From: an uncultured Candidatus Saccharibacteria bacterium
GTDB taxonomy: Bacteria; Patescibacteriota; Saccharimonadia; Saccharimonadales; Saccharimonadaceae
Length of the DNA stretch: 64,000 bases
Assembly (NCBI GenBank): GCA_947087275.1
Contig: CAMUBZ010000002.1
Span: forward strand, 1 to 64,000
Reading direction: 5' to 3'
The notes under the pieces were generated by a model. It was not told where the DNA came from, ran no database searches, and saw only the letters and a program-made list of their open reading frames with translations. The translations under genes and the position numbers were made by a program. Of the stretch, positions 94-60,944 are shown one piece after another. Position 1 is the first letter of the stretch. Every line of letters begins with the position of its first letter.

Positions 94-1200
94 TTACCTA
101 AGTCGTGAATAAATCTTCCACGCGAGTTTGAATACCGGACGCCCCAGTAAGAGGGAGCGCATAGCGAGACGATCACGCCGGCTGGCATCGGGACAGCGCA
201 AAACCCAATCCTTGTGCTGCAAGAGATACTGTGTGATTTCCTGCTCGACTTGCTGAATTTTAACCTTGTCTTGAGCAGAAGGTTTGGCTAGAACCATCTG
301 GCGTAAGATGCTGAACCGCGCATGCATACGGCGAAGATTGGTGACAGACTGGAGGCTTGGAAACTTTTGATCAATATCATTACACATTTGGTCGGTTAGT
401 TCAATCAAGTCTAGCTTATGGAAATTAAAGTTTTGGTGAATAATGGAGTCAGCGTTTTGGTAATATTCATAAAATGGTAGAGGTATAAACTGCACATCAT
501 CTGGGCACTGCATAATCAGGCGGTAGGTAGTGCCCACGTCTTCGTATAACTTCCCCATTGGGAATTGCACAGTTTTGAACAAGTCGCGGTGATAAAGTTT
601 TCCACAGGCAGACATAGTGAACCCCTGTTCTAAGAGCATTTGGCGCAGGCAGTTTTCTACAGTGAGGCTTTGGTGTTTAACTTCGGCTGGCATAATATAG
701 CCCTTTTGCCAAGACACCGCGCCAGTAATAGCATGACGTTGACCATTTGGTGCTACTTCGGTAAAAGAACATATGCGCACCGGGCTATTGCGGAGACCAA
801 TTAGCTCTTCTAACATATTCGGATAAATTGCGTCATCTGAATCAACAAAGGTAATTAGTTCTCCCTGAGCGATTTTGAGGGCAGCATTGCGGGCGGCAGA
901 GAGACCGGCGTTTTTCTGATGAAGGACGCGAACATTTTTGTGCTTCTGAGCAAGTTGGTCGCATAATTCCCCAGCGCCGTCAGGAGAGCCGTCGTCGACT
1001 AAGATAATCTCAAGATTGGAATAAGTTTGCGTCAAAATGGAGTTGACGCAGCGCTCAAGGGTGGATTTGGTGTTGTAAACTGGAACAATGACACTGATGA
1101 GGGGAATGTCTTGGCTTGAGCAACCCGCTCCAGCGCCCGTCCGCACGGGGCTGTCGCTCTTCGCTGCGCGCGTGCTCGCTCTTTTAGTTGCTCTCACCAA
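94..1200 (-). CDS. GT2-family glycosyltransferase with an element-derived N-terminus
   Basis: This is a family 2 (GT-A fold) glycosyltransferase expected to move a sugar from a nucleotide-sugar donor during surface-polysaccharide assembly at the inner face of the membrane. The GT2 signature ISVIVPVYNTKSTLERCVNS begins near residue 35, followed by EIILVDDGSPDGAGE and the donor/metal-binding segment FVDSDD near residue 120. The start is TTG at 1200, behind a GAGGGG ribosome-binding site and 13 nt after the glf stop, so the two genes are probably co-transcribed. The first 30 or so residues (MVRATKRASTRAAKSDSP...) are not part of the GT2 fold; they are translated from a palindromic element (1099-1212) inserted between the ribosome-binding site and the ancestral start. 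The acceptor is unknown, but adjacency to UDP-galactopyranose mutase makes a galactofuranosyl or related transferase plausible. Confidence 0.85.
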   Translation of the reverse strand: MVRATKRASTRAAKSDSPVRTGAGAGCSSQDIPLISVIVPVYNTKSTLERCVNSILTQTYSNLEIILVDDGSPDGAGELCDQLAQKHKNVRVLHQKNAGLSAARNAALKIAQGELITFVDSDDAIYPNMLEELIGLRNSPVRICSFTEVAPNGQRHAITGAVSWQKGYIMPAEVKHQSLTVENCLRQMLLEQGFTMSACGKLYHRDLFKTVQFPMGKLYEDVGTTYRLIMQCPDDVQFIPLPFYEYYQNADSIIHQNFNFHKLDLIELTDQMCNDIDQKFPSLQSVTNLRRMHARFSILRQMVLAKPSAQDKVKIQQVEQEITQYLLQHKDWVLRCPDASRRDRLAMRSLLLGRPVFKLAWKIYSRLR

Positions 1201-41749: not shown

Positions 41750-41953
41750 GTGCGCAGCGGGTATACTCATGTTAACAATGGTAAGATATGGGATGCTAGC
41801 AAGAACGGTAGCTGGTGGGTATCGCGGGCATCTACTTCAGCTACGGCGTATTATCTACAAATCGAACCAACATCGACTATGTCATCTCATAACCCAGGTA
41901 ACCGTTACTACGCTTTCCCCTTCCGCTGCCTTAGTACTGTATTAGGTATGTAG
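41750..41953 (+). pseudogene. Silent FISUMP-type C-terminal cassette, copy 1
   Basis: From GTGCGCAGCGG (V-R-S-G) to TAG there are 68 codons without a stop: VRSGYTHVNNGKIWDASKNG, then WWVSRASTSATAYYLQIEPT and RYYAFPFRCLSTVLGM. The ends match the other cassettes at DNA level, while the middle is unique. An ATG at 41705 is in frame but its codons run through the palindrome, and no ribosome-binding site or promoter is convincing. FISUMP domains normally end in a comparable W-S-S-R ... FPVRC pattern and belong to long exported proteins. Confidence 0.75.
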
Positions 41954-52332: not shown

Positions 52333-52542
52333 CTACATATCTAATACAGTACTAAGGCAGCGGAGGGGGAAAGCATCGGCTCTTATATCAAAATTGGAAG
52401 GATCAAGTTTTTCATCACCGTATTCGTTATGATAAGCCAGGTTATCCGCTGAATAGGCTCGCGATGACCAAGATTGACCATATAGCCCCATAGACCTAAG
52501 AGTTCCCGACACGTTATACACACTGAACCACCCGCTGCGCAC
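52333..52542 (-). pseudogene. Silent FISUMP-type C-terminal cassette, copy 2
   Basis: On the minus strand it has 70 open codons from GTGCGCAGCGG: VRSGWFSVYNVSGTLRSMGL, then YGQSWSSRAYSADNLAYHNE and IRADAFPLRCLSTVLDM. The 3' end is identical to the other copies apart from GAT for GGT. It is head-to-head with copy 3, 92 bp apart. There is no upstream start codon with a ribosome-binding site. Confidence 0.75.
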
Positions 52543-52597
52543 GATTCTTGGTTTATCGACCAAAAATTTGATTAAATTATAGGGGTGAATGTGGTTT

Positions 52598-52622
52598 GAA
52601 CTTGTACAGCCTGTACAAGTTC
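52598..52622. repeat. 25-bp palindrome at the 5' flank of cassette 3
   Basis: GAACTTGTACAG, a central C and CTGTACAAGTTC form a perfect inverted repeat. Relative to 16238-16262 the A/T at position 6 is changed on both arms, a paired substitution. Confidence 0.8.
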
Positions 52623-52634
52623 GTTCACTCTTCT

Positions 52635-52844
52635 GTGCGCAGCGGTGATATTTATTTACCTAGCGACGATGGAACTTTTCGGCTTGCCGGACAGCGTGGT
52701 TATAAATGGTTATCGCGTTCAGCAACATCAACCACAGACGCATACTTCTTCGTCTTTAACCCTCACGATGTTTATCCACTATATAGTAATGGTCGTTATA
52801 ACGCTTTCCCCCTCCGCTGCCTTAGTACTGTATTAGATATGTAA
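52635..52844 (+). pseudogene. Silent FISUMP-type C-terminal cassette, copy 3
   Basis: It has 70 open codons: VRSGDIYLPSDDGTFRLAGQ, RGYKWLSRSATSTTDAYFFV, and FNPHDVYPLYSNGRYNAFPL then RCLSTVLDM. The G-Y-x-W-x-S-R centre and the V-Y-P ... R-Y-x-A-F-P pattern are typical of FISUMP C-termini. About 50 bp of upstream DNA (TTATCGAC ... GTGAATGTGGTTTGAACT) is shared with copy 1. Confidence 0.78.
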
Positions 52845-59716: not shown

Positions 59717-59944
59717 CTACATACCTAATACAGTACTAAGGCAGCGGAGGGGGTAACCGACACTGCGTTCATACGGTCCACGTGATGGTTCTACAATAAT
59801 TCCGAATGCCAAATAATATCCACTTAGGATAGCCTCATTGGCTGCATTTTTATTTGAGCCTCGTGACGACCAATTATAGCCATTCTGTCCAGACCATCTA
59901 AAATTAGTCGTAGTATTCATAAGAGTAATTCCCCCGCTGCGCAC
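59717..59944 (-). pseudogene. Silent FISUMP-type C-terminal cassette, copy 4
   Basis: It has 76 open codons on the minus strand: VRSGGITLMNTTTNFRWSGQ, NGYNWSSRGSNKNAANEAIL, then YYLAFGIIVEPSRGPYERSV and GYPLRCLSTVLGM. F of FPLRC is Y here. The boundaries match the other copies. It is head-to-head with copy 5, only 15 bp apart, so CCGCTGCGCAC and GTGCGCAGCGG face each other as an inverted repeat. Confidence 0.78.
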
Positions 59945-59959
59945 ACTCTTAAGACTTTC

Positions 59960-60166
59960 GTGCGCAGCGGTGATATAGAATTATCTAATGCCGATAGCAC
60001 TTTCCGGTTTGCTAGTCTCCGTGGCTGGTATTGGTCATTACGTGGCTCTTCTAATACTACACTTGCACACAGCTGCGACTTCACTACCAGTGTTAGTCCA
60101 TCACGTGCCGACGTTCGCTATGACGCTTTCCCCCTCCGCTGCCTTAGTACTGTATTAAGTATGTAG
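59960..60166 (+). pseudogene. Silent FISUMP-type C-terminal cassette, copy 5
   Basis: It has 69 open codons: VRSGDIELSNADSTFRFASL, RGWYWSLRGSSNTTLAHSCD, FTTSVSPSRADVRYDAFPLR, then CLSTVLSM. The 3' end reads AAGT instead of AGGT before ATG-TAG. There is no promoter or ribosome-binding site in the 15 bp separating it from copy 4. Confidence 0.78.
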
Positions 60167-60207
60167 AATGGTGGGTGCAATGAGTAATTCCCTGCTATAA
60201 AAAGTGC
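60167..60207. other. Short spacer after cassette 5
   Basis: No gene is seen. It contains one TTCCCTG heptamer (60188-60194) directly before the promoter of the putative RNA gene. Confidence 0.5.
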
Positions 60208-60236
60208 TTGCATTTTTGTTATGGTTGAAATATAAT
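60208..60236 (+). promoter_or_regulatory. Promoter of the putative RNA at 60243
   Basis: TTGCAT, a 17-bp spacer and TATAAT. No protein-coding frame of useful length follows. Confidence 0.7.
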
Positions 60237-60242
60237 AGAGAT

Positions 60243-60384
60243 AACGGATTTGGGATTAGACAGATAATCTGGTTAAAGGATGTGTAATCTGTTTCTATCT
60301 GGGAATTCCGGGAGAGTTGGTTGAACCAATGTCATGATAGTGATATTGTGTCAAAAGATTTCACATTCTGTCTGTGTTTTTTTT
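60243..60384 (+). ncRNA. Putative small RNA of about 140 nt with intrinsic terminator
   Basis: A consensus promoter ends 6 nt upstream. The closing stem AGACAGA (60258-60264) pairs with TCTGTCT (60367-60373), directly followed by GTG and T8 (60377-60384). Inside are a TTGGTTGAACCAA hairpin near 60317 and GGGAATTCCGGGAG. No long reading frame exists. The overall form, a long closed hairpin with internal loops, recalls 6S-like RNAs, but no signature was identified. It sits between cassettes 5 and 6, so a role in cassette regulation is possible but unproven. Confidence 0.5.
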
Positions 60385-60528
60385 GTTATGTTAAGTAACG
60401 GCCATTTTTGGCTGGTTTTTGCTTTTTAATATCTGTAAAGTAGTTTTGTTTATTTCTTTAAGTTCCTATGGAGTGGGGCGATAGCGAGCTGAATGGCATG
60501 TAGGGAATTATGCTATAATATGTTTTTT

Positions 60529-60579
60529 ATGCTAAAAAGTGAAGAAACTTTTGCTTATTTTAAGGACGCTTATGCTTAA
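60529..60579 (+). CDS. Possible 16-residue leader peptide
   Basis: MLKSEETFAYFKDAYA starts 9 nt behind TGC-TATAAT, matching the leaderless pattern of real genes here. Its stop overlaps the start of the next tiny frame. It could be a leader peptide or chance. Confidence 0.2.
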   Translation: MLKSEETFAYFKDAYA

Positions 60580-60649
60580 ATTTAAACTGATTGTGGTATT
60601 TGTGATTACTGTTATGGTAAATTCTGGTAGGGAATTATTATGGGGTTAA
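60572..60649 (+). CDS. Possible 25-residue hydrophobic peptide
   Basis: MLKFKLIVVFVITVMVNSGR followed by ELLWG, with AAGGA upstream and start/stop overlap with the 60529 frame. The form (two lysines, a hydrophobic core, a polar end) resembles a signal segment or a small membrane toxin-like peptide. Evidence is weak. Confidence 0.2.
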   Translation: MLKFKLIVVFVITVMVNSGRELLWG

Positions 60650-60713
60650 AGCAACTTTAAACTATAAGTTATATTTTAAGTCAGGTAATAGATGTATTAT
60701 CCACTTCCATCTC

Positions 60714-60944
60714 CTACATACCTAATACAGTACTAAGGCAGCGGAGGGGGAAAGCGTAGTAACGGTTATCCCATCCATACATTAGATTCACACTAGTAGC
60801 GTTGAAACCTAGGCTATAAACGCTAGCATTGCCAGAACTACCAGCAACAGTCGCTGCACTACGTGATGACCAGTCATAACTCCATTGACCCGTACGCGTC
60901 AATGTTCCTGTTGTAAGGGGTGGATAAATTACTCCGCTGCGCAC
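60714..60944 (-). pseudogene. Silent FISUMP-type C-terminal cassette, copy 6
   Basis: It has 77 open codons on the minus strand: VRSGVIYPPLTTGTLTRTGQ, WSYDWSSRSAATVAGSSGNA, SVYSLGFNATSVNLMYGWDN, then RYYAFPLRCLSTVLGM. The boundaries match the other copies. No start signals are present upstream (60945-60985). Confidence 0.78.

Follow-up and report, generated by a model that had tools for sequence, protein, structure and literature searches.

Dispersed silent cassettes in a Saccharibacteria genome, probable orphan variable repeats of a diversity-generating retroelement kept for the 3' end of a FISUMP-type gene

Cassettes in the window and across the genome

The stretch of DNA analysed here (the window, 64,000 nucleotides) comprises positions 1-64000 of contig C2 of the draft genome of an uncultured Saccharibacteria bacterium (G000; 829,342 bases in 15 contigs, 91% complete), and carries seven short cassettes with common ends (Table 1; coordinates outside the window are given as contig:position). 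An earlier note on this DNA had placed seven cassettes here, and all of its coordinates are right: the six complete cassettes, three on the plus and three on the minus strand, start with GTGCGCAGCGG, all six have lengths that are multiples of three and open frames, and the common 22-base tail is exact in 7/7, compared with 0 in 100 dinucleotide shuffles of the window. The note's description of the middles, as sharing almost only a W-S-R centre, has to be corrected, since more than this is common; the consensus of 48 cassettes of both classes described below reads VRSGxxxLxxxxGxxRxAGxxGxxWSSR...AYxLxFN...VxPS.....RYxxFPLRCLSTVLGM.

Table 1. Cassettes of the window, with copies in the same genome and contents of syntenic sites in the sister species G179
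Feature	Position	Strand	Basis	Comparison
3' part of silent cassette, cut by contig start	1..86	+	tail match	
Silent cassette, class A, 204 bp	41750..41953	+	head and tail, open frame	G179 syntenic place: divergent pair, other content, 0.56 identity
Silent cassette, class A, 210 bp, left half of divergent pair	52333..52542	-	head and tail, open frame	Middle 88% identical to G000:C3:90790
Silent cassette, class A, 210 bp, right half of divergent pair	52635..52844	+	head and tail, open frame	Head not found in syntenic stretch of G179 for pair 52333-52844
Silent cassette, class A, 228 bp, left half of divergent pair 15 bp apart	59717..59944	-	head and tail	G179 same site, other content, 0.57 identity
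Silent cassette, class A, 207 bp, right half of divergent pair 15 bp apart	59960..60166	+	head and tail	0.60 identity to content of same G179 site
Silent cassette, class A, 231 bp	60714..60944	-	head and tail	Middle 99% identical to copy at G000:C2:84526, flanks unrelated; 0.62 identity to content of same G179 site

The incomplete cassette at the contig start would form a divergent pair with a cassette at the end of contig C10: window positions 116-1092 and the C10 end flank the pair 13607-/13737+ at locus L129 of G179, where the site is a cassette pair too. A reading of positions 1-86 as the end of a full-length gene is unlikely, because synteny places them in this silent pair.

The count of seven stands for the window; genome-wide there are about 80 cassettes, so the library is larger than the earlier note had claimed. 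The exact 11-base head occurs at 80 places in G000, compared with 1 for a reversed-pattern control, and the 22-base tail, with at most 2 mismatches, at 75 places (72 exact), compared with 0 for the control. When read, these places yielded 66 head-to-tail cassettes (class A), 14 with the head only and 9 with the tail only; the 14 comprise 11 elements of a second class (class B, see below), one cut by a contig end, one truncated copy (C11:8424, a copy of C2:83982) and one (C4:56738) without a cassette behind it. With identical cassettes entered once, as also in the adenine counts for G000 given below, 62/63 distinct class A cassettes have a length divisible by three and no stop ahead of the last codon, compared with a stop-free share of 5% for base-shuffled middles and with 29% open after 30 random substitutions. 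Three cassettes have TGG in place of the stop codon (C2:119346, C4:15090 and C6:6022), and one (C12:10333) carries a single frameshift. Conservation of the tail extends a few bases beyond the stop, to about TAGGAG, and the conserved anchors measure about 40 bp at the 3' side (tail) and about 14 bp at the 5' side (head). Open frames on these orphan cassettes, among those listed, mostly span 65-140 aa and do not lie within the 3' end of a target gene.

Cassettes tend to be neighbours in head-to-head orientation (28/38 neighbour pairs within 2 kb, p 4e-10), and in five of the head-to-head pairs the heads are 15-17 bp apart. The spacers of some wider divergent pairs are alike, as judged by eye, and contain hairpins. 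Head and inverted tail have the 7-bp sequence GCAGCGG in common, and one cassette (G000:C1:33816-34018, locus L037) has tails at both ends, its head being joined to an inverted tail at this GCAGCGG. Direct repeats of at least 4 bases, as left by target duplications, were found at the junctions of none of the 22/22 divergent class A pairs tested. G000:C6:34651-38289 (locus L032) holds a second FISUMP gene whose ends differ (ITTVLAE); about 100 bp further downstream, on the other strand, lies a silent cassette.

Profile searches at E<=0.01 gave 91 matches in G000 and, in other genomes, 95 in G179 (listed as G099 in this search), 149 in G177 (G100), 74 in G096 (G101), 81 in G176 (G102), 72 in G178 (G103) and 26 in G104; the last seems not to be of the same type, four sampled matches being without a VRSG head. 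In a draw of 99 genus genomes that included G000, the exact G000 head was present at most once in each of the others. At E<=1e-4 some match was found in 167/174 genus genomes, many with only a few (at most 34 per genome were scored), and these probably include ordinary FISUMP genes or DGR targets.

Reverse transcriptase, template-like elements and adenine bias

G000 carries a reverse transcriptase (RT) gene at C1:1018-2166, which was missed by an RVT_1 profile search of the contigs and recovered with the RT protein of G042 as query; the two are 73% identical and the G042 gene adjoins a template. The G000 protein matches RVT_1 (E 6.8e-9), its best PDB sequence is 8ub7, 'Reverse transcriptase' (E 1.4e-20; next best 0.0014), which we take to be the RT of the BPP-1 diversity-generating retroelement (DGR), and it contains the motif IGNLTSQ, which we regard as DGR-like; the best NCBIfam model is a group II RT with 68.5 bits, far under the cut-off of 300. 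Judged from its sequence, the enzyme encoded by G000 is a DGR-type RT. In G096, G042 and G178 a single cassette rich in Asn codons lies at most about 350 bp behind the RT gene, and the layout is the same in G176; in these four congeners it is thus the layout of a DGR. No template was found within 900 bp downstream of the RT in G000, G179 or G024. Directly behind the RT gene of G177 (G177:C2, locus L243) lie two tandem cassettes, and G024 (G024:C22, locus L153) has a different RT frame with an Asn-rich stretch resembling a template repeat (TR) near the N-terminal end, perhaps a second type of DGR.

The 11 class B places combine the class A head with a middle rich in AAC/AAT codons and with different flanks. 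The sequence AAAGATCGTGAAGTTC...GAACTTC is conserved upstream in most of the 11, and GGTGCCGATCTT follows downstream in 11/11; the same downstream element is also found beside the cassettes of congeners. A twelfth template-like element, with an altered head, lies at C5:383, and all 12 of G000 sit away from the RT. Class B elements (e.g., L070 and L058) are bounded by AAAGATCG...CGATCTTT, an inverted repeat that encloses the template-like cassette together with an upstream part in which hairpins are possible. Variation confined to adenines was not seen in G000 when its class B elements were compared with their own consensus.

Comparison of cassettes with templates documents an adenine-biased origin in some species. 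Thirteen dispersed cassettes of G096 differ from the RT-adjacent template at 235/487 A compared with 208/2005 non-A positions (p 8e-72), two dispersed cassettes of G178 differ from theirs at 29/94 A and 4/260 non-A, and the assembled 80 nt of the variable repeat (VR) in the full-length gene of G042 differ from the template at 4/20 A and 0/60 non-A. Rates in G177 were 0.42 for A and 0.13-0.17 for other bases (16/22 cassettes, those less than 30% divergent from a template candidate), and in G024 0.33 for A and 0.06-0.12 for the others, the latter from 4/35 cassettes chosen for less than 20% non-A divergence, a choice which itself favours an A-bias. No A-bias appeared in two cassettes of G176 compared with the RT-adjacent template. 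The signal is weak in G000 (A 0.415, C 0.37, G 0.31, T 0.26 for distinct class A cassettes against template-like elements), and a derivation of the G000 class A cassettes straight from today's 12 template-like elements finds no support, even the best matches still differing by 26-41% per base. The view of the cassettes as silent donor units, put forward in the earlier note, is retained here; what that reading lacked was a DGR origin, with the cassettes as putative variable repeats accompanied by an RT and templates.

The full-length gene, unit copying and turnover

Contig C13 of G000 encodes the first 474 residues of a FISUMP-type protein (P0001), with a start that looks signal-like by eye, and the frame leaves the contig before the variable part; no full-length gene with cassette ends is assembled in G000, C13 ending short of the place. 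The gene upstream is presumably the end of infB, and the same neighbour lies upstream of the FISUMP gene in G179, G177, G042, G176 and G096; it was not found within 1.5 kb upstream of the gene in G024. With TIGR02145 (FISUMP), locus L139 scored 49.7 bits, above the cut-off of 41.65, and the truncated P0001 36.6 bits, below it; both were under the cut-off of PF09603, and the predicted structure of the FISUMP part is of low confidence (pLDDT 32, from 4 sequences). Relatives of the N-terminal part at E<=1e-60 occur in 9/174 genus genomes, own included. The contig stops inside the gene, before or within the VR, in G000, G179, G096, G176 and G042, that of G024 stops 8 bases after the searched stretch, and G177 alone among the seven genomes has an assembly that continues well beyond the gene; repeated or mixed 3' ends would do this to an assembly. 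As far as their frames were printed, the other four N-part matches (G164, two in G178 and the G000 paralog) lack a VRSG head.

In G177 and G024 the full-length FISUMP gene has the same species-specific head and tail as the cassettes of its own genome (in G177, TTTC followed directly by GTTCGCAGCGG, and CCGCTGCCTAGCTAGACAGTAATAATA), which places a VR in the 3' end of the gene in both, as in the partly assembled gene of G042. To judge from its full-length frame, this gene would be the expressed copy. The heads start with GTG, GTT or GTC depending on the species, and the GTG in the window is therefore a valine codon and no start. Downstream of the G177 gene, synteny with the window start or with other contig ends gave no convincing match. 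At L139 a perfect hairpin, GCAGGAGCGC-GTGA-GCGCTCCTGC, lies about 30 bp past the stop without a T run and may, we assume, be a DGR target hairpin.

The gene VR of G177 is identical to a silent cassette on another contig over 197/197 positions from the head to beyond the stop (40/128 candidates scored); upstream identity stops 2 bases before the head, the flanks are unrelated, and the other 44 places among the matches listed for this VR match at the 3' end only. The gene VR of G024 agrees with a silent cassette at 220/221 positions, with one single-base gap in the tail and unrelated flanks (40/114 candidates scored), so that a silent twin exists for 2/2 fully assembled gene VRs. Apparent exchange of the unit within a gene end is seen in a 641-bp partial duplicate of the FISUMP gene 3' end elsewhere in G177, which differs from the gene at 1/143 positions upstream of the head and 1/331 from the tail on, compared with 78/174 inside the cassette. 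Several cassette pairs of G000 are likewise identical or nearly so at distant loci with different flanks; this requires copying of the unit itself, independent mutagenic copying being a very unlikely source of such identity. The proposal of the earlier note, that the cassettes serve as donors to one full-length FISUMP gene at its 3' end, is thus well supported by the congeners, through the gene ends in G177 and G024, the silent twins and the cassette-only difference in G177; that cassettes pass between gene and silent sites, and in which direction, is what we infer.

The sister species G179 has a stretch syntenic with window positions 40790-62757, and further syntenic stretches with other cassette sites. 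At 18 syntenic sites of G000 and G179 cassettes occupy the same intergenic places, and the mean identity of their contents is 0.598, compared with 0.616 (sd 0.037) for random pairs; the sites were paired by hand, and 1/19 was unreadable as class A. For the 38 distinct class A cassettes read in G179, from about 95 profile matches, identity to any G000 class A cassette never exceeded 0.75. The earlier note had regarded identical cassette content and position in many strains, with frame-breaking decay, as evidence against a library, and contents do differ in this sister species: as read from the paired sites, the site persists and its content appears to have been replaced. All genomes compared are drafts, several of them MAGs. 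Long frames of G179 that include cassettes (612, 663 and 338 aa) were set aside as read-through into unrelated sequence.

Interpretation, competing explanations and related systems

We consider it probable that the cassettes are orphan DGR variable repeats kept as a silent dispersed library, in which the DGR would make the variants and unit-length copying would store them and exchange them among the silent sites and a single site of expression. New variants would arise when the DGR mutates adenines, in the expressed VR and possibly also in cassettes. Recombination anchored on the ~40-bp tail and the ~14-bp head would copy whole cassettes between the silent sites and the expression site, and variants archived in this way could return to use as the C-terminal domain of a protein predicted to lie at the surface. 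The direction of copying, the enzymes involved, expression, surface exposure and purpose are the parts of this scheme that we infer. The asymmetry of the anchors recalls DGR retrohoming, a likeness which we treat as a lead only. Carried further, the data lean slightly towards a two-tier adaptive repertoire, in which the retroelement would hypermutate the receptor tip and about 70 to 150 silent heritable cassettes would be stored and copied back into one expression site.

An archive that is filled in one direction seems unlikely to us. Here the DGR alone would diversify the expressed gene and the cassettes would be deposited past VRs, never read back; identical gene and silent copies fit either direction, since direction is not readable from them and one-way deposition could also give them, the differences in the G042 gene VR are confined to adenines, and the cassette tails run beyond the stop codon as they do in the gene. 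However, the gene VRs of G177 and G024 are not A-only relative to template candidates (14/40 A compared with 30/119 others, and 17/38 compared with 35/145), their distance at non-A positions being expected if an old cassette had been read in, and copies that are never read should decay, yet nearly all class A cassettes are open.

The same openness, far above the share that survives 30 random substitutions, bears on the improbable view that the cassettes are functionless relics, i.e., orphan VRs left by off-target DGR retrohoming or segmental duplication. The presence of the RT, the A-biased cassettes and the truncated and frameshifted copies (C11:8424 and C12:10333) would suit such relics, but the DNA ends have been kept, the 18 syntenic sites have been retained with their contents replaced, and gene and silent copies agree in both genomes where this could be compared. 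Mobile insertion cassettes of a MITE-, shufflon- or integron-like kind, whose movement would depend on a site-specific recombinase with the GCAGCGG of head and inverted tail as its target, are quite improbable: they could account for the excess of head-to-head neighbours, for the cassette at L037 bounded by tails at both ends and for the class B ends, but not readily for junctions free of direct repeats, for A-biased contents or for the apparent exchange of a unit within a gene end with both flanks kept. That each cassette is a small, independently translated gene, as the open frames and the GTG at the head in the window's species might suggest, is hardly credible when the heads are GTT or GTC in other species and head and tail belong to a full-length gene in G177 and G024.

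On the preferred reading, that of a library of orphan variable repeats, several known systems are comparable in part. The shufflon of R64 pilV offers alternative C-terminal ends on both strands, as seen here; it differs in that here there is no array at the gene, the cassettes being dispersed. Antigenic variation from silent cassettes, as in Neisseria pilS/pilE, Borrelia vls and Treponema tprK, resembles the present case in having one expression site (predicted here), many partial silent copies, common ends with a variable middle, and identical expressed and silent copies. Anaplasma msp2/p44 has about 100 silent genes (PMC11946796). In contrast to these systems, the donors here would descend from a retroelement; they lie dispersed along the chromosome, alone or in divergent pairs, and whole units would be exchanged with very short 5' homology, to judge from sequence comparison.

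DGRs, of which that of phage BPP-1 is an example and which also occur in cyanobacteria, share with the present system an RT and, as seen in some of the congeners, a template repeat rich in Asn codons and an adenine-biased VR at the C-terminus of the target gene. Cyanobacterial DGRs have remote variable proteins, with remote VRs near the 3' end of CLec-encoding genes, as described in PMC7517822; here, by comparison, there are dozens of VRs in short orphan frames with identical copies at several loci, and the genome of the window has 12 template-like elements away from the RT. DGR hypermutation and silent-cassette exchange are each known separately, and here they seem to be joined. Among the titles and abstract openings listed from an open-access library, which misses most subscription journals, none described orphan DGR cassettes, such a library in Saccharibacteria or the two mechanisms in combination.

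If this reading is true, bacteria from one of the smallest genome classes would combine random mutagenesis with a genomic memory that can be read, perhaps with a role in recognising or evading host bacteria. A stored repertoire would make it understandable that DGR variants can survive a further round of mutagenesis, and suggests a means by which small Saccharibacteria may track changing partners. Orphan intergenic VRs could escape surveys in which a VR is by definition located in coding sequence (PMC8144416).
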